This document shows positions 6,834 through 32,612 of a DNA stretch of 64,000 nt, piece by piece. A program made the position numbers and the translations under genes. The stretch comes from Desulfosediminicola ganghwensis. Lineage in GTDB: Bacteria > Desulfobacterota > Desulfobulbia > Desulfobulbales > Desulfocapsaceae. The notes under the pieces were generated by a model, which made no database searches, was not told the origin of the DNA, and was given only the letters and a program-made list of their open reading frames with translations. The DNA lies in assembly GCF_005116675.2 (NCBI RefSeq), contig NZ_CP050699.1:1697001-1761000 (forward strand). Direction: 5' to 3'. How positions within the stretch are numbered: position 1 is the first letter of the stretch; every line of letters starts with the position of its first letter.

Positions 6834-7377
6834 TTATTCCTAATAATTTTGGTATTATATTCACTGCAACACCGACTGAAACATCTTTAGATATTGCAGT
6901 AGTGTTTGAGAATATATTTTTAATTGCTCCAATATAAGAGGAGGCTTCATTTTCAAGTTTCCCTTCTTTAAACTTTTTGTTTAGGTGAGAGAAGGATTTC
7001 GAAGTCAGCCTATATCCACCTTGATGACAGGTTGAAATGAGATTTTCAGCCAATAGAAACTCGATCGTTCCTTGATATATCTCTAATTGTACTCGTTCAT
7101 CATTGTGCCTTTCTTCTTCCACTTCTCGCCATTGCTCTTTAGATTTTTCTATTTTCTCTTTAAAATCTTTTTCACGTAATTTCTCGCTGTAACTATGTTC
7201 TAACAACTCAGCCATGTCTTTTTTGATTTTTAATTCTTTCAATTCATCTTTTTTATCAAAACAAAGATAGTCTGAAATAATTGTCATACGGTCAATAGAA
7301 CAAGGTACCGGGAATTTCTGATAAAGAATTTCAAATATTTTAGCCGTATATATACTGAACTGTTCAATGTTATCCAT
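6829..7377 (-). CDS. Cassette-borne protein of unknown function
   Basis: This is a 182-residue protein with no family I recognise. The centre (about residues 45-100) is a long, highly charged helix that should form a coiled coil (many K/E, including SKEQWREVEEERHNDE). The part around residues 100-135 looks like a small winged-helix unit (TIEFLLAENLISTCHQGGYRLTSKSF). The last 35 residues are mildly hydrophobic and could touch a membrane. The stop codon lies within the attC end, typical for a cassette gene. Confidence 0.65.
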   Translation of the reverse strand: MDNIEQFSIYTAKIFEILYQKFPVPCSIDRMTIISDYLCFDKKDELKELKIKKDMAELLEHSYSEKLREKDFKEKIEKSKEQWREVEEERHNDERVQLEIYQGTIEFLLAENLISTCHQGGYRLTSKSFSHLNKKFKEGKLENEASSYIGAIKNIFSNTTAISKDVSVGVAVNIIPKLLGIS

Positions 7378-7390
7378 AAGGTTATTTTTT

Positions 7391-7405
7391 GAACGCTTTG
7401 TTAGC
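7391..7405 (-). repeat. Degenerate attC site c
   Basis: The minus strand shows GCTAACAAAGCGTTC directly after the gene at 7418, matching the left half of the other sites. Only about 14 bp lie between it and the next start codon, so a full right half with GTTA is missing. It is probably a decayed or rearranged attC, and the two flanking genes may now behave as one unit. Confidence 0.4.
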
Positions 7406-7417
7406 TAAATTATATTT

Positions 7418-7993
7418 TTATTGTGGATATATAAAGTGTACAGGTGAAGAATTTTCAAGCCATTCAGTAGCATTTTGGCCTATTCGTTTTACTTCATCAT
7501 ATAGGGGCTTCAATTCAAGTTCGAACTTTGTCCCATCTCGATTTTCCGATATAAATATTAGTTCCTCTTGTAGGAGTACTCTTTTAATTCGAGTTTCATC
7601 TCTTATTAAATAATTATAGCCAGACCTAGAATCTAGAACGATTTCCATGATTGAACCTGCGTCATCTCGTACCCAATTGTCAATGCGTTCATCGAAATGT
7701 TCCGCATTGTCTCTAGCATTTCGCGTAAGAACTTCAGATGCACCTGAAACACTAAGTTTTTCCTTTAGCAAAGCCATTCTTTCCCTTTTTATGCCGTTAG
7801 GTCTAATTGGTGAGATATATTTAGATATCATACCAGCATGAGCCAGGAAGGAAGTTAGGTGAAACCAAACAAACCTTGTTTGTCTAGTTTGCTCATTTTC
7901 GATGCAATTAATCATTTCATGATAGTGAACTTCGGCACCTAATGAATGCATTGATACTTCTTGCATATACCATGTTAATTGTGTGTCATTCAT
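7418..7993 (-). CDS. Cassette-borne HEPN-like protein
   Basis: This is a 191-residue, largely helical protein. Residues about 80-105 contain RNARDNAEHFDERID, which fits the R-x4-H pattern of HEPN domains; many of these are RNases or nucleotidyl transferases' partners in toxin-antitoxin and defence systems. The pattern alone is short, so the call is tentative. The N-terminal half has conserved-looking His and Trp positions (VHYHEMINCIEN, FVWFHLTSFLAHAG). No antitoxin-sized gene lies immediately beside it apart from the next cassette. Confidence 0.6.
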   Translation of the reverse strand: MNDTQLTWYMQEVSMHSLGAEVHYHEMINCIENEQTRQTRFVWFHLTSFLAHAGMISKYISPIRPNGIKRERMALLKEKLSVSGASEVLTRNARDNAEHFDERIDNWVRDDAGSIMEIVLDSRSGYNYLIRDETRIKRVLLQEELIFISENRDGTKFELELKPLYDEVKRIGQNATEWLENSSPVHFIYPQ

Positions 7994-9786: not shown

Positions 9787-10847
9787 TCTGATTACCCCTA
9801 AAGCTCAGCATTTAAAAACCCCTTGAGGGTGGTCACTCTGTGATACCCCTGGCATGTCATAATCCCTTGGATAACCTTCATAGGGAGAAACGACATGCCA
9901 AAGAATACAGTTCAATTTCAAAAAGGCCTCAGCTTGAAGAGATTTCTCGATACATATGGCGCTGAAGAGCAGTGCCGAGAAAGGCTATTCAATGCTCGTT
10001 GGCCTACTGGGTACAAATGTCCGAGATGCGGTCATACCAAACACTACCTAATCTTAACTCGGAATCTCTATCAGTGTCGCAACTGTCGTTTCCAATGCTC
10101 ACTTACAAGCGACACTATATTTGCCTCCTCAAAACTGCCTCTTACTACTTGGTTCCTCGGGATTTTCTTTGTTACCCAATCGAAAGAGGGTATGTCAGCG
10201 CTCAATCTGCGACGATTACTTGGTATTTCAATCAATGCTGCTATGAAAATGAAGCACAAGCTCCAGCACGTTATGAAAGCAGCCGATGACAGTCTTGCCC
10301 TCAATGGCCTAGTTGAACTTGATGACGCATATTGGGGTGGTAAAAGATCCGGTGGTAAGCGTGGCCGGGGAGCCCCTGGCAAAACCCCATTTCTTGCTGC
10401 CATAGCCCGCAACGAAAAAGGCCATCCGATTCATATGAGAATGAGTAAAGTGAACTCCTTTTCCTCCCAGGAAGTTCGCAAGTGGTCGTTGAAGCATATC
10501 CACCACGAAAGCGTTGTAATTTCGGATGAGTTCGGCCCGTTACGAGGAGTTGCTGACAGCGTTGCTTTCCACGGCGCTATCAATACAAGTGAAATTTATC
10601 ACAATCCCGACAACAAGATTTTCCATTGGATCAACACCATGATCGGCAATGTCAAAAGGGCCATACATGGTACATATCATGCTGTGAGTTCAAAGCATTT
10701 GCCAAGGTATTTGGCTGAATTCTGTTTTCGTTTCAACAACCGTTTTTATATGGGAGCCATGGTCGGCTCACTTATTCGATATTCCACAGTTACTAAGCCA
10801 ATGCCTCAGCGTATTTTAAAGTTTGCTGAGGATGAGGGGTAATCAGA
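9787..10847 (+). mobile_element. Complete IS1595-family insertion sequence
   Basis: The element is about 1.06 kb. Inverted ends begin TCTGATTACCCCT and share CTCAGCA further in. It is flanked by a perfect 8-bp direct repeat TAATATTT (9779-9786 and 10848-10855), as expected for IS1595. It carries one intact transposase. Its ends match those of two short repeats at 14.0 and 20.0 kb. Confidence 0.95.
9895..10842 (+). CDS. IS1595-family transposase
   Basis: The transposase is 315 residues. The N-terminal zinc ribbon is CPRC (about residues 41-44) with CRNC about 18 residues later. The catalytic domain is of the ISXO2 type: LVELDDAYWGG (first Asp), VVISDEFGPL (second Asp), and a C-terminal segment with HWINTMIGNVKRAIHGTYH. 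The frame is intact and the stop lies only a few bases inside the right end. A GGGAGA ribosome binding site (9882-9887) precedes the ATG. Confidence 0.95.
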   Translation: MPKNTVQFQKGLSLKRFLDTYGAEEQCRERLFNARWPTGYKCPRCGHTKHYLILTRNLYQCRNCRFQCSLTSDTIFASSKLPLTTWFLGIFFVTQSKEGMSALNLRRLLGISINAAMKMKHKLQHVMKAADDSLALNGLVELDDAYWGGKRSGGKRGRGAPGKTPFLAAIARNEKGHPIHMRMSKVNSFSSQEVRKWSLKHIHHESVVISDEFGPLRGVADSVAFHGAINTSEIYHNPDNKIFHWINTMIGNVKRAIHGTYHAVSSKHLPRYLAEFCFRFNNRFYMGAMVGSLIRYSTVTKPMPQRILKFAEDEG

Positions 10848-10872
10848 TAATATTTTTGTCAAACATAACGAG

Positions 10873-12703
10873 CCTGTAGAAAAATGCAGTTCAAAATCCC
10901 GAAGATTCCCTCAACCGATTTCAGGAGGGTTCCAAAAATCTACTTTCCTAGCCGCCTATTTCGATTCCACTTGTTCTTTACCCTGCTCTATTTGCCCTCA
11001 GTCCATTTGTGAACCTTCTTGGGACTATTCTCCTCTACGATCTACCTGTCAGCTGCCTACTACCGCTCCATACGAGTGGATCTTTTTCAGGTTATGGACC
11101 ATGCAGAACAGGTTCCACTGCGCATTCACTTTTCGTTTTCCTCGAAGACTGAATCGATCAAGTTTCATGGTTGACCGTATATGGCCAAAGGGTGGCTCAC
11201 CAACAGCGAGTCGCATGCCATAGATTGCTCGACCAATGGTTGAATCAATCTTTCGTTTCATCTTCTCTGTGAATCGCTCATTACCGTTACGCTTTTTCCC
11301 CGGAAAGTAAGCTAGCTGGCGGGCCTCGGTTTTCTCTGGCTTGCGTAAACACTCACGTCGCAATTGACATGGGAGGCAGTCTCGCTTAGCTCCTTTGAAC
11401 TTGTAGGCCTGATAATCTTTCACCTTGGCGTTGCAGCCATTGCGGTAGAGTTTCTTGCCGGCCGGACAAATAGCGTGGCTCAAATCATCAGCGAAAGTAA
11501 AATGTTCAGGCCGAAAGAGTCGCTTTCCACCGGCCCTGGTCGCAAAGTGATAAGCGGGGAGATCTTTATAGCGCTCCGCTGTGGCAAAGCGAGGATCTCG
11601 TTTGCGGAAACGAGTATCCGCAACATACCCATCTATATTCTCTGTATAGAGGTACTCGAGATTCTTCTCGGAATGATAACCGCTATCCGCTACAACTTTG
11701 GCCTTACCAAATACATCTTGGTCGCCTATCTGTTCCAAGTTAGACTGTATCGACTTCAGCGAAGGTACAAGGAGATTGGACTCACTGCCCTGCCCATAGG
11801 CTTCTGCTCCAACAATGACTTGGTGCTTCTTGTCCACTGAGGCAACACCGACATACCCCTGTATTACCCCTTTCGATGTGGCCATCTTGGCAGAGTCATT
11901 ATCGGTAATGTTTGATTTAACCGGTTTGCCGCCACTGCCACGTCGGTCATCATGGTCTTTCAGCCAATCCCTTATCTTGGCAGCACTTTTTTGTAGTTTC
12001 TTCTTATATTTCTCTTCATGATCCCGAACTTCCGGCTCTATCTTCTCAAGATCCATGGACTTGTGACGGATGATCATTCTGTGCAGAGCTCGCTCTATCT
12101 TTTCAACCTTTTTGGTCAAATCGGCTTTGGTGCCACTCCATTCCTTAGAGGCATTGCTTGGGAGTTTGCAGCCATCAATAGCAAACATCTCTCGGCCAAT
12201 AAGGTTCTGCTGGTCACAGATCAGCAGTACTTGAAGAAAGAGAGAGACAACCTCTTTGTCCATACTGGAGACGAAACTGGCAATTGTTGTGAAGTGGGGT
12301 CTGGTATTGGCTGAAAGGGCCATGAAAAGGATGTATTTCTCACAGCACTCGGAAATTGCACGACTAGAAGTAATACCTCGTGAATAGGCAAACAGGATAA
12401 TCTTCAGCAAAATCCGTGGGTCATAGGCTGGGGCACCAGTTTCGTCGTTGGTGAACCTGGCATCAAAGATGGAAAGGTCGAGTTCGTGATCGACCAGATA
12501 GTTCAGGGTGTACTCGAAAGTCCCTTTTTGTATCTGCTCATTGAAGAATACTGGTATGAACATCCCCTGAGCGTATGAATACGGCTTGTATTTGGCCATG
12601 GCTTCCGACTTTCGGCAGGGTTAAGGGGTTGATTACCATCGAATGAAGCCAAATATAACTCTAAATGCCTGATTTTGCTATGACCAACACCTTTTTCTAC
12701 AGG
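10873..12703 (-). mobile_element. IS1182-family insertion sequence
   Basis: It runs from CCTGTAGAAAAA at 10873 to its inverted copy TTTTTCTACAGG ending at 12703, about 1.83 kb, with one intact transposase. I see no direct repeat at the flanks (CGAG on one side, TTCA on the other). Either the duplication was lost or this element inserts without one in the hairpin target. It begins 25 bp after the IS1595 copy. Confidence 0.85.
11049..12599 (-). CDS. IS1182-family transposase
   Basis: The transposase is 516 residues. The N-terminal domain (FTNDETGAPAYDPRILLKI, RAISECCEKYILFMALS) is typical of the IS1182/IS5-like group. The catalytic part has FAIDGCKLPSNASKEW (first Asp) and VVADSGYHSEKN (second Asp). 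A Cys-rich zinc region (CPAGKKLY ... CLPCQLRREC) is followed by the hallmark C-terminus LRGKRKVNAQWNLFCMVHNL. The frame is full length and uninterrupted. Confidence 0.95.
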   Translation of the reverse strand: MAKYKPYSYAQGMFIPVFFNEQIQKGTFEYTLNYLVDHELDLSIFDARFTNDETGAPAYDPRILLKIILFAYSRGITSSRAISECCEKYILFMALSANTRPHFTTIASFVSSMDKEVVSLFLQVLLICDQQNLIGREMFAIDGCKLPSNASKEWSGTKADLTKKVEKIERALHRMIIRHKSMDLEKIEPEVRDHEEKYKKKLQKSAAKIRDWLKDHDDRRGSGGKPVKSNITDNDSAKMATSKGVIQGYVGVASVDKKHQVIVGAEAYGQGSESNLLVPSLKSIQSNLEQIGDQDVFGKAKVVADSGYHSEKNLEYLYTENIDGYVADTRFRKRDPRFATAERYKDLPAYHFATRAGGKRLFRPEHFTFADDLSHAICPAGKKLYRNGCNAKVKDYQAYKFKGAKRDCLPCQLRRECLRKPEKTEARQLAYFPGKKRNGNERFTEKMKRKIDSTIGRAIYGMRLAVGEPPFGHIRSTMKLDRFSLRGKRKVNAQWNLFCMVHNLKKIHSYGAVVGS

Positions 12704-21899: not shown

Positions 21900-23282
21900 T
21901 CAAGCAGCGCTGTTTATTGCATTTTGCCACAGACAGAATGAATCTACATTCTTTAAGGTGTGATCCGCAAGCCTGGGGTTGCCTTTTTCAGCAATCTCAC
22001 GGATACCGGCAAGCGCATTGTCGTCAGCGGGAAAGTACAGAGGAAGAACTCCTGTGTTTTGGGGTCGTGCTTCAAAGAGCTTCCTGGAATAGCGTTCACG
22101 CTCACAGTCTTCCAGGAATTTTTCCTTACTGAAAAAGTTCAGGCTGCCTAGAGCACCCATGGCGTGTCGTACGATATGCACCCCATATTTGCGTAACGAA
22201 TTGCGGCTCATTTCAGACTCGAAAATAGCCAGGGAAGACACTTCCGTCAAGCTGGTGCTGCCTCCGGTCTGGGCTGAGGGGTACCCGGTAATCCAGAGGT
22301 TGAGCCGTGCCAGAGCCGCATTGATGAGAGGCTGACAGGGAGAGCTGTAAGAAAGATTGCCACCTGTCTCCGTCACACTGGGGAGGCCTCCGTGAATGCA
22401 CAAGACACCCGGGTTAACAGTCTGGGCGATAATCATCATAAAGAGCACCTGGGCATGAATCTGCGTCAGCAACGACTCCGGACTGCAGGCGCCGGATACG
22501 CCGGCAATAGTCTGGTCTATCAGCAGCAGGTTGTTGCCGGAGCGGGCACTGCGCAAAAATGGGTCCACCATGCTATTCATGGGCGCCAGGGAGGAAAGCA
22601 GGCTAGTGCCGTCGATCCAGTGTTCCTTGCCCGATAAAAATTGCACCTCGTCAGCGTTCATCGTGTTGGTGGTGATCATTTTCAGCCCTTGATAGTCTCG
22701 CTCCATCAACCGGGCTACCTCAAAAAGGGATATGCTCTTGTCGCAGGCAACCGGCAGGCTGAAAATGTTCACAATATCCTGCTGTTCAGCCACCAGGCGG
22801 GTGATCTGGTCGTACTCTTTGCGAGTGGCCGGGCGGAGTTCTTCGTCGGTGCTCCGTTTGAGAAAGGGTGATGTCGAACCTGTGCCAAAAGAGTTTCGAC
22901 CAGGGTCTCCGGGCATTTCTCGGGGGACCAGCTCCAGGCAACGGTCGATGTAACTCCGTTTTATGGGGATAAACAGCGCTGTTTCATTTTCGAAATCAAT
23001 GGCATCCGCTTCCAGGAGAATATCCATAAGAGTCTGGTTCCCTGAAATATTCATGCCGATTTCCGTCAAGACCTGTTTGGCGTTTTCGTCGATACGCTGA
23101 TAGATCCTCTTCTCGGCTATCAGGTCGTCAATATCCTCCAGCCGTAATCGGGCTGATTCGAGAATTGTTTCATCGGTGACATGCTGCAGCATCTCCTGAT
23201 AGAGGGCTTTTGCTTTGCTGAAATGAGTTTCCTGTTCCAGGACAATCCCTTTCGCCAGGATAGATTCCCCGTGTGGGCCCAT
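21900..23282 (-). CDS. MttB-superfamily protein, non-pyrrolysine
   Basis: The protein is about 460 residues from the ATG at 23282, which has a GAGGAG site; the frame itself reaches 23315. The core matches the trimethylamine/glycine-betaine methyltransferase superfamily (VGMNIS-type entry IGMNISGNQTLMDILLEA, PATRKEYDQITRLV, TVNPGVLCIHGGLPSV, SAQTGGSTSLTEVSSLA). There is no internal amber codon, so it belongs to the group that lacks pyrrolysine, like MtgB. A helical leader of about 40 residues precedes the family start. No corrinoid protein or reactivase gene is nearby. The substrate is unknown: a quaternary amine is the family norm. Confidence 0.8.
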   Translation of the reverse strand: MGPHGESILAKGIVLEQETHFSKAKALYQEMLQHVTDETILESARLRLEDIDDLIAEKRIYQRIDENAKQVLTEIGMNISGNQTLMDILLEADAIDFENETALFIPIKRSYIDRCLELVPREMPGDPGRNSFGTGSTSPFLKRSTDEELRPATRKEYDQITRLVAEQQDIVNIFSLPVACDKSISLFEVARLMERDYQGLKMITTNTMNADEVQFLSGKEHWIDGTSLLSSLAPMNSMVDPFLRSARSGNNLLLIDQTIAGVSGACSPESLLTQIHAQVLFMMIIAQTVNPGVLCIHGGLPSVTETGGNLSYSSPCQPLINAALARLNLWITGYPSAQTGGSTSLTEVSSLAIFESEMSRNSLRKYGVHIVRHAMGALGSLNFFSKEKFLEDCERERYSRKLFEARPQNTGVLPLYFPADDNALAGIREIAEKGNPRLADHTLKNVDSFCLWQNAINSAA

Positions 23283-23459
23283 GGTAATGCTCCTCAAGCC
23301 GAGGTGATGGTGCACCGGCTAGAGAGCTGGTCAGCGCTGGTCTGTTGCTGTAGTGCACTGAGAGAAGTTCTCCGCAATTGAAACGTTATTCGACTCATAC
23401 CAGAATATACCCTCTGATGTCTGAGGGGAAATCAGGCTGGGTAGATAATCTGTACGCAA

Positions 23460-24416
23460 CTATATCTGTTTTTCATACTGTAGGGGCAGCAGGCGAAGCA
23501 GCAGTGTGCCGAAGCGCATGATGGCCCATAAAAAAATGAGTGGCAGGAGTATGGTGTTCAAGACAAAAACCACGATAAGATCGACAATCTGGTCTATCAA
23601 TTCCAGCGACATCTTCTTGAGCAGTTCGATCTTGTTTTTGGCTTCCAGCATGCGCTGCCCCTGACTCATGGTCTGGTTGACCAGCTCTTTGGTTTTGCTC
23701 CAGATTCCCTTTTCATCCTGCGGGCTTTCCCCTTCAGTCTCTTCTTGCTGCCCGCCCTCAGTGGGACCGAGCAGGTTATCGAGTTGCTGTGACTCAAGGT
23801 CGGCCACGGTACGGCCCAGCACTTCAACCGAGAGATCATGCTTTTCCTGCAAAAAGGTAACATAGACCTGTTCGTTGATATAGGCCATGGCTGGCACAGC
23901 GAAACGCAGCACCACTGCGGTGACCACCAGCACCACACCACTTCTGGTAAGCTGTGGCCTGTATTTCAATGGCAACCAGAGGCCCAGGAGCAGCACGATC
24001 AAAGCCAGTGCCAGAATGATCTGGACAGAGACAAAAGGTGTAATTTCAATAAGGAACTTCTGGGACCCAAGAGAGGTGAGGCTGACCAGCATCACCCAGG
24101 AGAAACGTTCAATGAGGTCGTTGATCGGGTCCAGGGCGGCGCCGAGGGCGAGTGAGACACCAACTCCGCCCGGTTCGAGCTGGAGCGTGCTCTCCTGAAA
24201 AACTGAGATCACCCCGTTAAAAGTGCGGGCCATGGCAAAGGAGGCGGCGGCACGCAGCAGGGCCTGATCCACATAATCGGTGGCAACACTGTCTACAGTC
24301 GTGAAGGCTCTGTTTTCAAAGAGGTAGCTGCGGGGCATCTCAAAGCAGGAACCTATCAAAACAAGCACCAGTAAGGCGGTCATCACAACTTTTCGATGCT
24401 TCGAAAGCGAGGCCAT
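23460..24416 (-). CDS. Membrane protein of unknown function
   Basis: This is a 318-residue protein. Helices lie at about 10-27, 115-150, 160-185 and 270-305, with a soluble, acidic segment between the last two (about 190-265, Gln/Glu-rich and partly coiled coil). The first helix resembles an uncleaved signal. I recognise no family. It follows the MttB-like gene's direction but sits upstream of it, 144 bp apart, so linkage is possible but not shown. Confidence 0.75.
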   Translation of the reverse strand: MASLSKHRKVVMTALLVLVLIGSCFEMPRSYLFENRAFTTVDSVATDYVDQALLRAAASFAMARTFNGVISVFQESTLQLEPGGVGVSLALGAALDPINDLIERFSWVMLVSLTSLGSQKFLIEITPFVSVQIILALALIVLLLGLWLPLKYRPQLTRSGVVLVVTAVVLRFAVPAMAYINEQVYVTFLQEKHDLSVEVLGRTVADLESQQLDNLLGPTEGGQQEETEGESPQDEKGIWSKTKELVNQTMSQGQRMLEAKNKIELLKKMSLELIDQIVDLIVVFVLNTILLPLIFLWAIMRFGTLLLRLLPLQYEKQI

Positions 24417-25238: not shown

Positions 25239-26018
25239 TCAGAGGCTTTCGTCTCTGTTGCAATCTTTGGAATAGATGTATTCCATGCGATCAAGGCCGG
25301 TGCCGTAGCAGGCCTGTTTGCAAAACGGGGCAAACCAGATGAAGTCTTCTGCCTGGACGGGTATCCAGGTCTCATCGAGAAGATAGAGGCCCTGGCCGGT
25401 GTAGATATAGGCCCCGTGTTCCTGTACGTGGGTTTCTACGAAAGGATGGCATCCGCCGGGCAAAAATGCCAGGGTGTGGAAGTTCATATCGAAGCTTTCA
25501 CCGGTCGGCAGCAGATCGCGCACCAGGACGTTTTCCATATCGTCATAATTGCTTTCATTGATCCTGTGGATGTTGCCTGTCACCGTCCAGGGGAGTTTCA
25601 CTTCCGGGTCCGGATGGGGGGTGAAGCGCTGCTTGTAGAGCAGAATACGAACCTCGCCGTCACCTTTTGACTTAAAGTGAATCCCTGCTCCCGGAGGGGA
25701 GTAAATGTATCCGCCTGCGGTGAGGGTCTCGGTGGTGTCGCCCGATTTTACTTCAAGGCCGCCCATGCCATCGAGCACGAAGAGCAGGGTCTCGAGGCCT
25801 TCTTCAGCCCCGTAGGCCATGGTCGTCTCGCCTGTGGTGCTGACCGTGCCGATCATCTGTACGAAGCTTGCGCCAAGTTTTGGCGAAGCGAGTATGGTCA
25901 TCTGGCAGTCCCTGATTCCGGGAATGACGTTGATTACTCGGCCTTCGGGGCTAATGACAGCGTACTTGCCCGGCTCCAGAACCGATCTGTTTTTTAGTAA
26001 TCCCTTAGGGTATCCCAT
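25239..26018 (-). CDS. allE: (S)-ureidoglycine aminohydrolase
   Basis: It removes ammonia from (S)-ureidoglycine to give (S)-ureidoglycolate in allantoin breakdown. It is a 259-residue bicupin, the usual length. The manganese site is intact: ETHVQEH gives Glu195, His197 and His201, and CKQACYG gives Gln235, as in plant and E. coli enzymes. The N-terminal cupin starts near residue 40 (TILASPKLGASFVQM). A GGAG site precedes the ATG. The gene is last in the ureide operon, 16 bp after the reductoisomerase-like gene, so the two are made together. Confidence 0.92.
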   Translation of the reverse strand: MGYPKGLLKNRSVLEPGKYAVISPEGRVINVIPGIRDCQMTILASPKLGASFVQMIGTVSTTGETTMAYGAEEGLETLLFVLDGMGGLEVKSGDTTETLTAGGYIYSPPGAGIHFKSKGDGEVRILLYKQRFTPHPDPEVKLPWTVTGNIHRINESNYDDMENVLVRDLLPTGESFDMNFHTLAFLPGGCHPFVETHVQEHGAYIYTGQGLYLLDETWIPVQAEDFIWFAPFCKQACYGTGLDRMEYIYSKDCNRDESL

Positions 26019-26034: not shown

Positions 26035-27030
26035 TCACTTACCGAATTTCTCGCGCCATATTTCGCCTGTCTGCTCCATGTCTGATTCTGCACAGGTGCG
26101 GCGCATTCTGTGCAGTGTCGGCATGCCGAGGGAGAATTCCTGCAGCCAGTTTCTGGCGAAAATACCATTTTCGGTTTCCTCGAAGATTTTCTCCATCTCT
26201 TCTTCATTAATAACCCGGGGGCCACTGTGACGCACGGCAAATTCACAGGTTCTGCTGGCGCGTGAGGTGAGGTAGGGCTCGATGCCTACCTCGTCGATAT
26301 CATCGATGATAGAGCGAATGGAGCGGATGGCTTTGGCATAGGCAAAGGAGCGCGGGTAACCGTTCTTGACCATGATATTGTACATGGTGCGCATCAGGTG
26401 GATGGTGCCGCCGTAGAGTACCTGCTCTTCATAGTTGTCGCCTTCCGTTTCATTCTGGAAGGTCATAACCACTACTCCGACCCTGGTGGAGCCAACCGCC
26501 TTGGCGATGGCAAGGGCGGTTTCCTGGGCCTGGCCGCTGATGTTCTGGTCGACAGCGACACAGCCCCAGATGCCTGAGCCGTCTTTGTACTTCTGGCGGG
26601 TGACCGGGCCAGGACCATTTGGGACAAAGAGTACTACGTCCACATCCTTGGGTGGCTTGATTGTGCCGTAAAGTACCGCAAAACCGTGGGCGAAACTGAG
26701 GGTCTGGCCAGGGCGAAGGTGGGCGTGAATGGATTCGTAATAGACTGATGGCTGGGCCGGGTCTTGTAGCAGGATGTGTACCACGTCGGCTTTTTGAACT
26801 GCCTCTTCGATGGAGTAGACTTCAAAGCCATCGGCTTCAGCTTTGTCCCAGCTTGAATGGCGATGGCGATCTCCAGCACCGACGATTACCTTGATACCGC
26901 TTTCACGCATATTCATGCTCTGGGCGCGCCCCTGACTGCCGTAGCCGATAACGGCCACAACCTTGTCGGTAAGCAGTTCAAGGTTCACATCTTCATCACG
27001 ATATATTTTTTCAAAATTTGTAGCGTTCAT
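26035..27030 (-). CDS. Divergent ketol-acid reductoisomerase-like protein in a ureide operon
   Basis: The protein is 331 residues, class I IlvC size. A Rossmann domain opens VVAVIGYGSQGRAQ (GYGSQG at 29-34). SFAHGF keeps the active-site His115, and D198 and E202 in EGDNYEEQ keep two metal ligands. But the catalytic Lys of the P-K-x-P-G motif is Asn138 (VPNGPG). The two C-terminal metal-binding Glu (family AYFECLHE) are Lys233 and Ser237 (AYAKAIRS). It lies between allC and allE, and no isoleucine/valine genes are near. It is unlikely to be a working acetohydroxyacid isomeroreductase. Oxidation or reduction of a ureide intermediate such as ureidoglycolate is an inference. A GAGGT site precedes the ATG. 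Confidence 0.88.
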   Translation of the reverse strand: MNATNFEKIYRDEDVNLELLTDKVVAVIGYGSQGRAQSMNMRESGIKVIVGAGDRHRHSSWDKAEADGFEVYSIEEAVQKADVVHILLQDPAQPSVYYESIHAHLRPGQTLSFAHGFAVLYGTIKPPKDVDVVLFVPNGPGPVTRQKYKDGSGIWGCVAVDQNISGQAQETALAIAKAVGSTRVGVVVMTFQNETEGDNYEEQVLYGGTIHLMRTMYNIMVKNGYPRSFAYAKAIRSIRSIIDDIDEVGIEPYLTSRASRTCEFAVRHSGPRVINEEEMEKIFEETENGIFARNWLQEFSLGMPTLHRMRRTCAESDMEQTGEIWREKFGK

Positions 27031-27162: not shown

Positions 27163-28401
27163 TTAAGCGATCTCTTCTGTGGAGTTGCCGGTTTGCACAA
27201 TCGCAGCCAGCAGTACATCGGTGCCTGCAGCGCAATCCTGCCATGAGGTGTTCTCAATCTCGGCATGGCTTCTGCCGTCAATAGAAGGAACAAATATCAT
27301 GGCACTGGGCGTTTGCTGGTTGATGTAAATCGTGTCGTGGGAGGCGCCGGAAACCATATCGAGGGATTCCAGGCCGAGTTTGGCGGCGCTGTCATGGACG
27401 AGTTTGACCAGTTCAGGGTGAAACGGGGCCCGCTCAACTTCCCACAATTTGTTGATGGTAACTGTGCATCCGGCACTTTCGGCAATTTCGGCAAGGGCAG
27501 TTTCAACCTCGGTACATACCCGGTCGGTCTCATCTTCTTCCCAGCCCCGGATGTCGATGGTGAAATGTACTTTTCCGGCAATGACGTTTCGGGAGTTGGG
27601 GATGGGATGTACTTCGCCAACGGAGGCGACAACTTCATCGGCGTTACGACCGGCTTCGAAAATTCTGGCGTTCATCAGGGCGAAACAGTAGAGGGCGTCC
27701 TGTCGTGAGTCCATCGGGGTTGGGCCGACATGGTTGGTGACACCAGTTACTTCGATATCGTACCAGCGCAGGCAGACGATGCCTTTGGGAACTCCGATGG
27801 AGATACCTTTTTGCTCCAGCACCGGGCCCTGTTCGATATGGCATTCAAAATTGGCATGGATCGGACCGGGCTCAAAAGGTTCGGTACCTTTGTAGCCAAT
27901 GCGCTCCAGTTCGTCACCAAGTCGCTTGCCTTCAAGGTCGGTGAGATCGTGCATTCTGGCAAGTGGCAGTTTGCCTGCGAAATATCCTGAGCCTGTGGTG
28001 CCGGGGGTGAATCTGCTGCCTTCCTCGTTGGTCCAGTTCACAACGATCAGGTCACGCTCAAGCTGGATACCGGCGTCTTTTAAGGCGCACATTACCTCGA
28101 GGCCGGCAATGATGCCGAGAATACCGTCGAAGCGTCCGCCCTGGGGTTGAGAGTCGCAATGGGAGCCGGTCATAATCGGCGGCAGTGAGCGCTGCTTGCC
28201 TGCCAGAGTGAAGAACATGTTACCCATCGGGTCGATATGTGTGGCAGCACCGGCCGCTTCAAACCACTGTTTGAGCTGGTTTCGGGCATCACGATCCTCG
28301 TCAGTGAGCGCGAGTCGCGTCACTCCGCCTCTGTCAGTTGCACCGAAGCGGGCGATTTCTGTCATGAATTGTTCTAAACGTGTTGGATTGCAGCGTATCA
28401 T
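27163..28401 (-). CDS. allC: Allantoate amidohydrolase (M20 family)
   Basis: It hydrolyses allantoate to ureidoglycine, CO2 and ammonia; close relatives are N-carbamoyl-L-amino acid hydrolases, so only the context fixes the substrate. The protein is 412 residues. Metal and catalytic residues are present: GSHCDSQPQGGRFDG (His81, Asp92), TNEEGSRF (Glu126/127), ECHIEQGP (His188) and GRSHAE (His379). The dimerisation lid is at about 210-325. It sits between the ABC ATPase gene (76 bp upstream) and the reductoisomerase-like gene (132 bp downstream) on the same strand, and its product is the substrate of AllE. Confidence 0.88.
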   Translation of the reverse strand: MIRCNPTRLEQFMTEIARFGATDRGGVTRLALTDEDRDARNQLKQWFEAAGAATHIDPMGNMFFTLAGKQRSLPPIMTGSHCDSQPQGGRFDGILGIIAGLEVMCALKDAGIQLERDLIVVNWTNEEGSRFTPGTTGSGYFAGKLPLARMHDLTDLEGKRLGDELERIGYKGTEPFEPGPIHANFECHIEQGPVLEQKGISIGVPKGIVCLRWYDIEVTGVTNHVGPTPMDSRQDALYCFALMNARIFEAGRNADEVVASVGEVHPIPNSRNVIAGKVHFTIDIRGWEEDETDRVCTEVETALAEIAESAGCTVTINKLWEVERAPFHPELVKLVHDSAAKLGLESLDMVSGASHDTIYINQQTPSAMIFVPSIDGRSHAEIENTSWQDCAAGTDVLLAAIVQTGNSTEEIA

Positions 28402-28477: not shown

Positions 28478-29206
28478 TCAGCTCACGGCACCGATAAAGG
28501 CGGCCAGCTCAGGGGTGGCCGGGCTGTTGAACAGTTCCTTGGGCGGACCGGCCTCGTGGACCCGTCCTTCATGCATGAAGATGAGCTTGTCGCCAACTTC
28601 GCGGGCAAAACGCATTTCATGGGTAACCATGATCAGTGTCATGCCGTCGCTGGCAAGTTTTCGTACGACCTCAAGCACTTCGCCGACCAGTTCCGGGTCG
28701 AGTGCTGAAGTGATTTCGTCGCAGAGCAGGACTTTGGGCTGCATGGCCAGCGATCTGGCTATCGCCACGCGCTGCTGCTGACCGCCTGAGAGTTGATCAG
28801 GGTAGGAATGGAATTTCTCAGCAAGACCAACCCGGTCCAGCATCTCTTCAGCTAGCGTTACTGCCTGCCTTGGATCAATTTTTTTTACCTGTACCGGTGA
28901 GAGCATGATGTTTTCTCCCACGGTGAGGTGGGGGAAGAGGTTGAATTGCTGAAAAACCATGCCCACCTTGAGGCGCAACGGCCGCAGGTCTTTTTCCAGG
29001 CCTGTGATGAGTTGGCCATCAACAAAGAGAGCCCCGCCATCGAGTTCTTCAAGGCCGTTCAAAATACGGAGGAAGGTGCTTTTTCCCGACCCGCTTCTAC
29101 CGATAATAGCGACGACCTCGCCTTCGTTGACAGTAAGATCAACACCTTTGAGTACTTCCAGGTCGCCAAAATTTTTATGTATATCTTTGCTGATGATTAA
29201 CGACAT
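28478..29206 (-). CDS. Polar amino acid-type ABC transporter ATPase
   Basis: This is a 242-residue ATPase of the GlnQ/HisP type. It has the Walker A GRSGSGKST (36-44), a Q-loop at QQFNLFPH, the signature LSGGQQQR and the Walker B LLCDEITSALDPE, followed by the H-loop VTHEM. It overlaps the permease gene at 29197 and has an AAAGGAG site. It powers uptake by the two permeases beside it. With AllC and AllE downstream, the cargo is more likely a ureide or related nitrogen compound than a common amino acid. Confidence 0.93.
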   Translation of the reverse strand: MSLIISKDIHKNFGDLEVLKGVDLTVNEGEVVAIIGRSGSGKSTFLRILNGLEELDGGALFVDGQLITGLEKDLRPLRLKVGMVFQQFNLFPHLTVGENIMLSPVQVKKIDPRQAVTLAEEMLDRVGLAEKFHSYPDQLSGGQQQRVAIARSLAMQPKVLLCDEITSALDPELVGEVLEVVRKLASDGMTLIMVTHEMRFAREVGDKLIFMHEGRVHEAGPPKELFNSPATPELAAFIGAVS

Positions 29207-29844
29207 CCGATGCTCCTTTCGATATGTCTGGAATACACGGAAAGTGGAAAACAGAGCATGAAATAGCCCACGGCCACCAGTGAATAGACCAGTAGGGGCT
29301 GGAAGGTGGCGTTGGCGATCATGGAACCTGTTTTGGTGATTTCCATAAAGCCGATGATTGAAGTGACAGCGGTTCCTTTAACCACCTGCACGGAAAAACC
29401 GACAGTGGGCGGAATGGAAATGCGTAAGGCCTGGGGCAGAATGACAAACCGCATCTGCTGGTATCTCGACATGGCCAGGCTGTCGGCTGCTTCCCATTGC
29501 CCTGTTGTGATTGATTCAACAGAGCCTCTCCATATTTCGGCAAGATAGGCACTGGTAAAAAGGGTCAGCCCGATGGTTGCCGCCAGCAGGGGGGAGATGT
29601 CTGAGCCGAGCAGGCCAATACCGAAAAAGATGAGAAAGAGCTGCATGAGCAGCGGTGTTCCCTGGAAAAACTCAATATAGGCCTTGGACAAAATGCGAAG
29701 AAATTTGTTGTCTGAGATCCGTGCAAGCAGGGTGAGGAGCCCGACTATTCCACCAAGAACAAAGGCGATGAGAGAGAGCCCTGCCGTCCAGCCGAGACCG
29801 AGTAGCAGATGTTTGACAATGAGTGTTATTGGGAAATCAATCAC
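29197..29844 (-). CDS. ABC transporter permease, polar amino acid type
   Basis: The protein is 215 residues with about five membrane helices. The EAA loop that docks on the ATPase reads WEAADSLAMSRYQQMRFVILPQAL. The N-terminal start PITLIVKHLLLGLGWTAGL is typical of the HisM/GlnP group. It overlaps the upstream permease by 4 bp and the ATPase gene by 10 bp, so expression is coupled. Confidence 0.92.
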   Translation of the reverse strand: MIDFPITLIVKHLLLGLGWTAGLSLIAFVLGGIVGLLTLLARISDNKFLRILSKAYIEFFQGTPLLMQLFLIFFGIGLLGSDISPLLAATIGLTLFTSAYLAEIWRGSVESITTGQWEAADSLAMSRYQQMRFVILPQALRISIPPTVGFSVQVVKGTAVTSIIGFMEITKTGSMIANATFQPLLVYSLVAVGYFMLCFPLSVYSRHIERSIGCR

Positions 29845-30509
29845 GCTGGCCTCCGGTCAATGAAGGTGTTACCTATGAAATGTAAGAATTTTCGGATCAA
29901 TATGGCCAGAATCAGGTACATGATGGTGCTGCAGAGGTAAATCTCAAAGGCCCGGAAGGTCATGGACTGAAGGAGGTTGGCGGAATAGGTGAGTTCCATT
30001 GCAGCAACCTGCGAACAGACCGATGAACCAAGCATGACGATGATGATCTGACTGCACAGTGCCGGCCAGACCGTTTTGAGCGCCGGTTTGAGCACGATAA
30101 AGCGAAAGGTCTGGTATTTACTGAGGGCAAGCGCTTTGGCGGCCTCTATCTGGCCGCTTGGGATAGCAAGGATTCCGGAACGTATGATTTCTGTTGAGTA
30201 GGCTCCGAGGTTAAGAGCCATGGCTATAAATGACGCTTCCCAGCCGCTGAGTTTAATGCCGAGTGCTGGCAGTCCGAAAAAGATGAAGTAGAGCTGAACG
30301 AGAAACGGGGTGTTACGGATGGATTCTACATAGATGGAGAAAATATGCTGAAGCAGGGGGAGTTTCCAGCCCCTTGAAACTGCCCCGAGAATACCGGTAG
30401 CCACGCCGACCAGTGATCCGAGAAAAGTGAGCAGCAAGGTCATTCCGGCTCCCTGGAGCAGCGGAAGCCAATTGGTGAAAACGGGCTCGAATGAAAATTG
30501 ATAGGTCAT
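29841..30509 (-). CDS. ABC transporter permease, polar amino acid type
   Basis: The protein is 222 residues with about five membrane helices. The EAA loop is IEAAKALALSKYQTFRFIVLKPAL. It is the partner of the permease downstream, with which it should form a heterodimer. An AGGAC site precedes the ATG. It starts 58 bp after the substrate-binding protein gene. Confidence 0.92.
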   Translation of the reverse strand: MTYQFSFEPVFTNWLPLLQGAGMTLLLTFLGSLVGVATGILGAVSRGWKLPLLQHIFSIYVESIRNTPFLVQLYFIFFGLPALGIKLSGWEASFIAMALNLGAYSTEIIRSGILAIPSGQIEAAKALALSKYQTFRFIVLKPALKTVWPALCSQIIIVMLGSSVCSQVAAMELTYSANLLQSMTFRAFEIYLCSTIMYLILAILIRKFLHFIGNTFIDRRPA

Positions 30510-30567: not shown

Positions 30568-31368
30568 TTACAGATCCGTAGGGAGTTCGTTATGGAGCCA
30601 TTTCTCGGAGATAACATTCAGGGAACCGTCAGTTTTGGCAGCAGCAATGATGCCGTTAACTGCGGCCATGAGGCTTGGCTGCTCTTTGCCAATGCCCACA
30701 TAGCACGGAGAATTTTTCATGACGAATTTGGTTACCAGCATTTTGGCAGGGTTCTTCTCGTTAAGAGAAGCGGCGACGACATTGCCGGTAGCTGTCAGAT
30801 CTACCTGACCCATCTTGTAAGCGGCAATGGTAGAGGCATTGTCTTCAAAGCGTTTTATCTCAAGTGAAGCTGGTGCGACTTTGGTCAGTTCGAGATCTTC
30901 GATGGACCCGCGGGTTACAGCGATTACTTTTCCGGCTAAGTCCTCAGGGCCGCTGACATCCAGAGATTTGAGACCGAACACACCGTTAAAAAATGGAGCG
31001 TAAGCGTCTGAGAAATCGATAACCTTCGCACGATCCGGATTTTTGCCAAGAGAAGAGATAATTATGTCGACCTTGCCGGTTGTGAGATATGGGATGCGGT
31101 TGGTGCTGGTTACCGGTACGAGTTTAATATCTACACCAAGTTTTTCGGCGATGAGTCTGGCGGTGTCGATATCATAGCCCGCCGGTTTCATGTCTGAACC
31201 AACCGAACCAAATGGTGGAAAATCCTGTGGTACTGCTACTTTAAGTACTCCGGCAGCCTTGATCGCAGTGAGTTTGTCGTCGCTTGCCAGGGCAGGGCTG
31301 GTGATGAGAACGGCTGTGATAAATAGGGTGAGCAGGGTGAGAACGCCAGGCTTAATGCAGGTTTTCAT
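30568..31368 (-). CDS. Periplasmic substrate-binding protein of the ureide-linked ABC transporter
   Basis: The frame reaches 31470, but the signal peptide begins at MKTCIKPGVLTLLTLF (start 31368), followed by a cleavage-type ALA site. The mature protein is a family 3 solute-binding protein: GVLKVAVPQDFPPFG, then GYDIDTARLIAEKLGVDI and a C-terminal KTDGSLNVISEKW. This family normally binds amino acids. With its operon partners AllC and AllE, allantoate, allantoin or another ureide is a reasonable ligand, but no residue seen here proves it. Confidence 0.88.
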   Translation of the reverse strand: MKTCIKPGVLTLLTLFITAVLITSPALASDDKLTAIKAAGVLKVAVPQDFPPFGSVGSDMKPAGYDIDTARLIAEKLGVDIKLVPVTSTNRIPYLTTGKVDIIISSLGKNPDRAKVIDFSDAYAPFFNGVFGLKSLDVSGPEDLAGKVIAVTRGSIEDLELTKVAPASLEIKRFEDNASTIAAYKMGQVDLTATGNVVAASLNEKNPAKMLVTKFVMKNSPCYVGIGKEQPSLMAAVNGIIAAAKTDGSLNVISEKWLHNELPTDL

Positions 31369-31868
31369 GGAAGACTCCGATTGTGTGAGGTTTTGTGGTT
31401 GATGGCTGTGTTTTGTGTGGTGTGAATCTGGTCGGTCCGGACTGGTAGGGCCGGTTGGTCTGTTATGCACAAAATGGTGTAAAAAAAAGAAACTGTCAAG
31501 GAGATAATTTCCAATTATGTTGTAAAAATATATTGTTACAAAAACGTAAGCATATGAGCTTGTGCGTTAAGTGGCTGATTATGTGGGGCTCGAGGTGTGT
31601 GGAGAGGAGAGCGCTTGAGTAAGGCCAGAAAATACTATTACAAAAATGGAAAAAATAAAAGTGGACAGGATGTTGTGACTGTGTTTTTATGGGTCAATGT
31701 GGTCAGACCGGTTTGTGTTTTGTGTGTATTTTTGTTAGATATATTTCTTGAGTTGTGGTGAATGGTTTTTGTGAGTTGGTCGGGATACGTTGTCTGGGTG
31801 TTGGGTCTGTTGATCGGTCTGTGCTAGTGGGTCTGTGTGGTGAGATGCAGTGGGTGAAAGGAAGCACA
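31369..31868. promoter_or_regulatory. Divergent promoter region with a possible FadR-type operator
   Basis: About 500 bp between the binding-protein operon and the regulator gene must hold both promoters. TGGTCAGACCG at 31700-31710 resembles the T-G-G-T-N3-A-C-C pattern of FadR-group GntR proteins. Related half sites (TGGTCGGTCC, TGGTAGGGCC) lie at about 31427-31453. Placement is by eye and untested. Confidence 0.3.
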
Positions 31869-32612
31869 ATGAAGAGAAATACCAATCAGCGTGATGAAAT
31901 GCAAAAATCAAAAAGCCATAAAGCAGTTGAAGCAATCCGTGAAATGATAGCCAGCCATGGTTGGTCGGAGGGGACAAAATTGCCGTCCCAGCGCGATCTT
32001 TCATTGGCGTTGGGATTCAGTCGTTCGACGATCCGTGAAGCGATAGCCACCATGGAGGCTGGCGGGCAACTGATTATAGAGCCGTCCAGAGGGGTGTTTC
32101 TGAGCAGGCGTGATCAGATAAAAATGGTTCAATCTCCTAAAGCGGAGTCGCTGCCGAAAGCGCAGTGGCTCGGGTTGGCAGGTCGGGAAACGCAGATGTA
32201 CCAGTTCCGGCTCATGGTGGAACCTTCAGTGGCAGGATTGGTAGCGCAAAATGCCACCGATGTACAGTTGCGTGATTTACAGATCATGGTTGAGTCGATG
32301 GCCAAGGCTATGCAAGAGGGAAAGCTGGAGCAGTTCTCAGGGCTGGACTTCAATTTCCACGGGCAGATGCTCGAGGCCGCAAATAACTGTTTTTTTAATC
32401 TTTCGATCTCGCCGTTTCTCGATCTTTTCCATGAAAGCCAGAAGCTTCCTTTTCGTGCCAGTGAAGATCTTGGCGAAACCCTTGTGGAGCATGAGCGGAT
32501 CATGGATGCGCTCTGGCGGCGGAGCCCGGAGGATGCATCTATCGCTATGCGGCAGCACGTAGAAGGGGTTGCGGCCAGAGCTGGTGTTGTGATACCGGGT
32601 AATAGTCGTTAA
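31869..32612 (+). CDS. GntR-family (FadR subgroup) transcriptional regulator
   Basis: The protein is 247 residues from the ATG at 31869, chosen because AAAGGA lies just upstream; an earlier frame start at 31755 has no such site. The winged helix is at about 20-80 (KLPSQRDLSLALGFSRSTIREAIATME). The C-terminal FCD domain has FRLMVEPSVAGL, DFNFHGQMLEAANN and MRQHVEGV, with the Asp/His metal-ligand positions. It is divergent from the ureide operon and most likely represses it until a pathway intermediate binds. Confidence 0.88.
   Translation: MKRNTNQRDEMQKSKSHKAVEAIREMIASHGWSEGTKLPSQRDLSLALGFSRSTIREAIATMEAGGQLIIEPSRGVFLSRRDQIKMVQSPKAESLPKAQWLGLAGRETQMYQFRLMVEPSVAGLVAQNATDVQLRDLQIMVESMAKAMQEGKLEQFSGLDFNFHGQMLEAANNCFFNLSISPFLDLFHESQKLPFRASEDLGETLVEHERIMDALWRRSPEDASIAMRQHVEGVAARAGVVIPGNSR

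Follow-up and report, generated by a model that had tools for sequence, protein, structure and literature searches.

A ketol-acid reductoisomerase homolog with a rebuilt active site in an allantoin operon: a candidate ureidoglycolate dehydrogenase

The 64,000-nucleotide stretch of Desulfosediminicola ganghwensis analyzed here (the window) encodes a 331-aa class I ketol-acid reductoisomerase (KARI) homolog, which we name IlvCx, between genes for an AllC-like allantoate amidohydrolase and the (S)-ureidoglycine aminohydrolase AllE. A role for IlvCx in ureide breakdown is well supported, because its gene linkage is conserved, its active-site residues are changed, and no ureidoglycolate lyase or AllD scores above its cut-off genome-wide. 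With moderate confidence, we propose that IlvCx replaces AllD as a ureidoglycolate dehydrogenase, an NADP(H)-dependent enzyme that would form oxalurate on a KARI scaffold with one magnesium. A preliminary description, made from the letters of the window, had suggested that the protein acts on ureidoglycolate or another ureide; the ureide role stands, while substrate, direction, metal count, and cofactor are predictions.

IlvCx contains both KARI domains above their Pfam family cut-offs (KARI_N, 203.5 bits; KARI_C, 87 bits). It scores 295.4 bits with the ilvC equivalog model TIGR00465 (cut-off 226.15) and, with NF004017, 331.3 bits, narrowly below the cut-off of 336. The AlphaFold2 model, with a predicted local distance difference test (pLDDT) score of 92.2, adopts a KARI fold, matching PDB entries with a template modeling (TM) score of up to 0.93 by query length; the 50 best of 620 PDB matches (E <= 0.001) are all KARI/AHIR entries. 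Neither the Ldh_2 nor the AllD profile matches IlvCx at E <= 0.01. Coordinates and domain scores agree with the preliminary description of an IlvC-like open reading frame (ORF) between allC and allE, behind an ATP-binding cassette (ABC) importer. The gene lies 132 bp downstream of the allC-like ORF and upstream of allE, across the 16-bp gap reported there. The IlvCx proteins score 291–295 bits with the ilvC equivalog model (cut-off 226), and this standard model thus gives them the wrong name.

Alignment to solved KARIs reveals that IlvCx keeps His115, Asp198, Glu202, and Ser259, while Asn138 replaces the KARI catalytic Lys, and Lys233 and Ser237 replace the two second-metal Glu residues (Glu227 and Glu231 of MtKARI, respectively). 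The functions of the catalytic Lys and the conserved Ser (IlvCx positions 138 and 259) are those generally assigned to them in KARIs. The residues named in the preliminary description (His115, D198, E202, Asn138, Lys233, and Ser237) proved correct both on the DNA and against the solved structures. MtKARI binds its first Mg ion through Asp191 and Glu195 and its second through Asp191 and Glu231, with Glu227 distant (PMC8615647). Judged by alignment, the first Mg site of IlvCx (Asp198, Glu202) is intact and the second is destroyed. Arg55 and Ser60, invariant in the IlvCx sequences tabulated, align with NADP-binding Arg48 and Ser53 of MtKARI (PMC8615647).

The rebuilt site is fixed within the clade. 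Positions 115, 138, 198, 202, 233, 237, and 259 read HNDEKSS in 15 of 15 distinct IlvCx sequences, the window included, and HKDEEES in every other class I sequence compared (106 of 106), many of these being thaumarchaeal and closely related among themselves; two class II sequences do not allow comparison at the last Glu columns. None of the 14 close homologs besides the window keeps Lys/Glu/Glu, the pattern that the preliminary description had set against its own proposal. The comparison comprises 123 distinct sequences including the window, obtained by leaving out repeat loci and then removing 5 of 131 hits (<270 aligned residues) and four duplicates; the class II IlvC of the window genome is not among them. 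Of the positions that ordinary class I KARIs conserve at 97% or more, IlvCx has changed 17 of 34 within residues 189–265, a region picked after the positions of the changes were known, compared with 8 of 39 outside it (Fisher p 0.013). Further changes in the C-terminal domain include C206Y, H236R, and L240S, and the cofactor loop carries a two-residue insert, G53-D54.

The allC-like and allE genes directly adjoin ilvCx in 16 of 16 loci from 15 genomes or records (the window, G002, L023, G362, G588, G600, G685, two in G625, G645, G726, G727, G730, G748, G762, and G763), and the linkage whose absence was to count against the preliminary description is thus conserved. A chance neighborhood is ruled out by this linkage, which persists despite exchanged importers. 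The order allE-ilvCx-allC occurs in L023, a locus cut off by its contig end, and in the four genomes labeled as genus g133. Nine loci carry a polar amino acid importer, and six (G625b, G645, G730, G748, G762, and G763) carry a Pot-type importer followed by a racemase and an allantoinase. In G763 (L121), these are an Asp/Glu/hydantoin racemase (PF01177, 197 bits) and an allantoinase (TIGR03178, 400.3 bits; cut-off 357.85), both recovered in the other five loci by tblastn at 67–80% identity. G625 holds both operon types; its two IlvCx proteins (L119, L120) are each 87.9% identical to that of the window and share one tree row. Since two locus types exist, both of them in G625, the simplest reading is that the shared three-gene core starts at allantoate, which is either imported or made from allantoin.

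IlvCx is the best conserved protein of this core, with a mean identity to the window over 15 loci of 83.1%, compared with 67.6% for AllC and 68.0% for AllE, the G726 value for AllE being that of a partial ORF. In G726 (L126), allE is split over two frames (10601–10924 and 10909–11376), through a true break or a sequencing error, and allC and ilvCx are full-length matches. Between the window gene and its G002 ortholog, the nonsynonymous divergence (dN) is 0.083 and the synonymous divergence (dS) is not estimable (the program gave -1, taken as saturation), indicating purifying selection on IlvCx. Of the 15 other loci, 13 are headed by a homolog of the divergent GntR/FCD regulator (43–49% identity); no such homolog was found in the remaining two, G002 and the truncated L023.

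The 14 other clade sequences are 74–89% identical to the window IlvCx, with Desulfopila aestuarii (G002) at 88–89%; other IlvC proteins are 26–45% identical. In a tree of 78 rows, from which 45 of the 123 sequences, mostly thaumarchaeal, were omitted, the IlvCx sequences form one group, with Shimodaira–Hasegawa-like approximate likelihood ratio (SH-aLRT) support of 99, whose stem measures 2.61 changes per site and which is separate from the own IlvC of the f54 genomes (97). This recovers a clade with shared substitutions (15/15) and neighbors (16/16 loci), as the preliminary description had proposed to look for. According to a warning from the tree program, long-branch attraction between IlvCx and class II is possible, and the exact placement of the stem is not claimed. 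The window sequence groups (98) with D. aestuarii and eight f54 sequences, ten in all, suggesting horizontal transfer of ilvCx between families.

Whole-genome searches covered one phylum. Within one order, IlvCx is carried by 12 of 247 genomes (13 loci, 74–89% identity), all of family label f54, taken as Desulfovibrionaceae from the origin of L023. It also occurs in contigs L023 and L024, the latter counted together with G685, and was not found in G001 and G003, congeners of the window organism. A contig scan with two short N-terminal patterns, by which relatives in other phyla could be missed, placed 3 of 80 loci kept (of 85 found) in the IlvCx clade. Viral contigs yielded 14 pattern stretches and no relative, and none of 117 plasmid records reached at least 60% identity, with 36.7–40.8% among the 30 matches listed.

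Each of the 21 genomes searched, including 14 carriers, encodes a separate IlvC, which scores 377–468 bits compared with 291–295 for IlvCx. That of the window genome (G000:C1:566135-567136, 392.2 bits) is of class II length; the earlier remark that branched-chain synthesis genes are missing holds for the operon and fails for the genome. Desulfopila's own IlvC is likewise of class II length (502- and 516-aa frames) and IlvCx is class I-like, which rules out a degenerate or recently duplicated host ilvC. A recent duplicate is further countered by the SH-aLRT of 99, the 2.61 stem, and the dN of 0.083 to the ortholog (dS not estimable).

The steps expected after ureidoglycolate were sought in 16 genomes, comprising the 14 IlvCx carriers, G001, and G003. 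Ureidoglycolate lyase (AllA), AllG of oxamate carbamoyltransferase, and AllD above its cut-off (496.2) were found in 0 of 16, each with its E. coli control detected. Distant Ldh_2 proteins of 146–252 bits are present in seven genomes, all carriers, including one of 169.5 bits in the window genome. The preliminary statement that neither lyase nor AllD is present therefore extends, above the cut-offs, to the whole genome and is qualified by this distant protein. A lyase or true AllD elsewhere in the genome was accordingly rejected for the carriers searched; ureidoglycolate amidohydrolase, which belongs to the same M20 family as AllC, was not searched for. Urease alpha gives a full match in six of the 14 carriers and none above cut-off in seven, the window genome included; in G002, a partial match (positions 49–98 of 121) barely passes. 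This patchiness weakens urea as an end product, although urea could still be waste.

One genome without IlvCx, G671, shows what occupies the position otherwise. Its operon runs allC-transporter-allE-allD-allF/G-allH-carbamate kinase, with AllD at 527.6 bits (cut-off 496.2) and AllG and AllH matching Pfam, and it shares its genus label with four IlvCx carriers. Because G671 has AllD beside allE and no IlvCx, IlvCx appears to stand in AllD's place, and AllD and IlvCx occur together in none of the AllE loci examined. In the phylum sample, three of 395 genomes, all with IlvCx, have an AllE above cut-off; in the order sample, 21 of 247 genomes (23 loci) do. Of these 23 loci, 13 lie beside intact ilvCx, and three lie beside C-terminal ilvCx remnants (G640, G661, and G687), a sign of operon decay in three genomes; the remnants flank intact allE at L161 9562–9615, L162 8210–8386, and L165 9259–9558. 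Five loci lack AllC-like and IlvCx proteins (G663, G705, G716, G720, and a second copy in G763), as judged from stretches of 15–18 kb (L163, L166, L167, L169, and L170). Some of these lone AllE genes adjoin, by eye, an ORF resembling NAD kinase. In G717, a distant AllE (32% identity) lies among hydantoinase-like and, by eye, TRAP-type genes. The one further locus of the 23 is that of G671.

In the proposed pathway, allantoate would enter through the importer; in six loci, the imported compound would instead be allantoin, converted to allantoate by the racemase-like and allantoinase proteins. AllC would convert allantoate to ureidoglycine, AllE would convert ureidoglycine to ureidoglycolate, and IlvCx would oxidize (S)-ureidoglycolate to oxalurate, taking over AllD's step in an anaerobic allantoin/allantoate pathway. 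One Mg2+ on Asp198/Glu202 would chelate the carboxylate and C2 hydroxyl of ureidoglycolate, with the Lys233 ammonium in place of the second Mg2+ and helping to remove the hydroxyl proton. NADP+, bound by Arg55 and Ser60, would accept the C2 hydride; it is the proposed acceptor because these residues match Arg48 and Ser53 of MtKARI. Loss of the second metal site and the catalytic Lys would abolish the alkyl-migration half of the KARI reaction and leave the redox half.

In ureidoglycolate, a 2-hydroxy acid, the carbon bearing the hydroxyl also carries an amide nitrogen, which makes the compound a hemiaminal; its oxamate counterpart is oxalurate. In crystals of the KARI-fold enzyme BurG, the oxamate inhibitor N-hydroxy-N-isopropyloxamate (IpOHA) was reduced to a hemiaminal, and a BurG variant, E232Q, lost the main reaction but kept hydroxypyruvate reduction (PMC9359912). 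The KARI fold is therefore capable of oxamate/hemiaminal interconversion. If the dehydrogenase assignment is correct, IlvCx fills the gap after ureidoglycolate in the allantoin pathway of some sulfate reducers and adds a further natural KARI repurposing after BurG. To our knowledge, it would be the first such case with a lysine in place of the second metal site. A literature search of titles and abstract openings, incomplete in coverage, returned no IlvC-like protein in ureide breakdown. The claim of a new role for the family needs narrowing to a new pathway for the KARI fold, since the fold has been repurposed before, in BurG (PMC9359912).

Several observations weigh against a dehydrogenase. 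NAD+ is the commoner cofactor for catabolic dehydrogenases, a distant Ldh_2 protein could in principle do AllD's job, and AllE survives without AllC and IlvCx at five loci and so is not strictly bound to the pathway. E. coli AllD selects NAD+ (PMC3527362), whereas the IlvCx loop is NADP-like. With no oxalurate consumer found, oxalurate would be excreted or used by something unrecognised. The AllFGH transcarbamylase is described as the sole route by which urease-negative bacteria recover the remaining nitrogen (PMC11326118).

The missing oxalurate consumer and the NADP-like loop favor a reductive IlvCx, a possible though doubtful alternative in which NADPH reduces glyoxylate, arising from spontaneous ureidoglycolate breakdown, to glycolate, or reduces the carbamoyl imine of ureidoglycine or ureidoglycolate to N-carbamoylglycine, cut by AllC to glycine. 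Such a scheme requires neither the absent oxalurate-using AllG nor any extra dedicated gene. Further, carbamoylase-family structures (4wjb, 3.6e-105; 8c46, 3e-90) match the AllC-like protein better than E. coli AllC does (1z2l, 3.6e-56), and the protein scores 257.6 with TIGR03176, the E. coli AllC equivalog model (cut-off 597.75). Its earlier naming as allC thus holds at the level of the M20 'allantoate amidohydrolase' subfamily (NF006769), not as an equivalog of E. coli AllC. Free glyoxylate, however, would not need tight linkage to AllC and AllE, and the imine route leaves without purpose an AllE that is present in 16 of 16 loci; imine reduction by KARIs is not known beyond a trace activity. 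KARIs are promiscuous reductases, those of Streptomyces reducing pyrroline-5-carboxylate very weakly (PMC4353338).

A complete and new reductive ureide route from three genes is a rather improbable extension of this scheme. IlvCx with NADPH would convert ureidoglycolate, through the carbamoyl imine, to N-carbamoylglycine, from which the AllC-like protein would free glycine, CO2, and NH3. If true, a one-metal, lysine-assisted KARI would allow recovery of all four allantoate nitrogens with no need for urease, lyase, or carbamoyltransferase.

It is improbable that IlvCx is a tartronate semialdehyde or hydroxypyruvate reductase acting after glyoxylate carboligase in glyoxylate assimilation. Tartronate semialdehyde is an acetolactate analog with two methyls fewer, but no carboligase-like gene was noticed by eye in seven neighborhoods (no carboligase search was made), the glyoxylate-supplying lyase was not found, and loss of the isomerization residues fits such a reductase badly. 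The KARI-fold BurG does reduce hydroxypyruvate (PMC9359912). A catalytically dead partner that binds or stabilizes AllC/AllE, or a ureide sensor, would account for the lost catalytic residues and the co-inheritance with AllC and AllE, but we consider it quite improbable: the first-Mg-site residues and Ser259 are invariant, as are Arg55 and Ser60 in the sequences tabulated, the substitutions themselves do not vary within the clade, and IlvCx is better conserved than AllC or AllE. A ketol-acid or ketopantoate reductoisomerase or reductase still serving amino-acid or coenzyme synthesis, as the passed ilvC cut-off (295.4 vs 226.15) and the KARI fold match might indicate, is highly improbable given the replacement of the catalytic Lys and both second-metal Glu in 15 of 15 sequences, the separate, higher-scoring IlvC in 14 of 14 carriers, and the constant allantoin-gene context.

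Coordinates of the operon and the replaced active-site codons within the window are compiled in the table below. The closest solved structures to the window AllE are 1rc6 (YlbA) and 1sef, and the ligand of the periplasmic binding protein is probably allantoate. Beyond allE lie, both on the minus strand, an MttB-family methyltransferase ORF (21900–23315; PF06253, 64.1 bits) without an in-frame stop, and therefore probably no pyrrolysine enzyme, and a 318-aa ORF (23460–24416) that, by eye, contains hydrophobic stretches and that matches nothing in Pfam or NCBIfam at E <= 0.01. In the D. aestuarii locus (L022), an ORF for a second type of GntR-like regulator (6981–7658) lies, by eye, between the importer ATPase gene and allC, in place of the divergent regulator of 13 other loci. 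On the opposite strand of L022 (253–2992) are an ABC ATPase and, by eye, an apparent BMP-type binding protein, possibly for purine nucleosides.

Table 1. Features of the allantoin operon and replaced IlvCx codons in the window
Feature	Position	Strand	Basis
AllE, (S)-ureidoglycine aminohydrolase	25239-26018	-	TIGR03214, 319.6 bits (cut-off 200)
IlvCx (our name)	26035-27030	-	331-aa KARI-fold protein; proposed ureidoglycolate dehydrogenase
Ser237 codon	26320-26322	-	replaces other second-metal Glu (Glu231 of MtKARI); DNA and alignment
Lys233 codon	26332-26334	-	replaces first second-metal Glu (Glu227 of MtKARI); DNA and alignment
Asn138 codon	26617-26619	-	replaces KARI catalytic Lys; DNA and alignment
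AllC-like allantoate amidohydrolase (M20, hydantoinase/carbamoylase family)	27163-28401	-	NF006769, 482.8 bits (cut-off 452)
ABC importer ATPase, polar amino acid type	28478-29206	-	family-model match
ABC importer permease	29197-29844	-	TIGR01726, 100.9 bits (cut-off 42.2)
ABC importer permease	29841-30509	-	ORF; cross-matches the other permease query at ~30% identity in other loci
Periplasmic binding protein, SBP_bac_3	30568-31470	-	PF00497, 111.2 bits
Divergent GntR/FCD regulator	31755-32612	+	PF00392, PF07729

Among known systems, class I KARIs such as MtKARI (7q03, 4tsk) are closest in structure, sharing with IlvCx a TM score of 0.93, 42% identity over the structural alignment, both Pfam domains, the first Mg site, the conserved Ser, and the NADP-type loop Arg and Ser. 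They differ in retaining the catalytic Lys (Asn in IlvCx) and the second-metal Glu pair (Lys/Ser), in lacking the G53-D54 insert, and in lying among ilv genes rather than in an allantoin operon. AllD, the (S)-ureidoglycolate dehydrogenase, resembles IlvCx in pathway position, in its place beside allE (G671), and in the reaction proposed here, but belongs to the unrelated Ldh_2/sulfolactate dehydrogenase-like family. In E. coli and G671, it is accompanied by AllFGH, which the IlvCx genomes lack as searched by AllG. The E. coli enzyme is NAD+-selective (PMC3527362).

BurG, a cyclopropanol synthase, is like IlvCx a repurposed redox KARI paralog in a separate clade with an ordinary ilvC alongside, but uses two Mg ions and NAD and serves a different pathway (PMC9359912). 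By bit scores with IlvCx, ordinary KARIs reach 287 bits at best and BurG entries 141 bits. Streptomyces KARI paralogs parallel IlvCx in their duplicated ilvC and altered specificity, reducing varied 2-keto acids and, weakly, an imine, but are still functional KARIs of valanimycin or primary metabolism rather than of ureide operons (PMC4353338). IlvCx is a variant of the known KARI fold in a new pathway, and KARI repurposing itself is already known from BurG.
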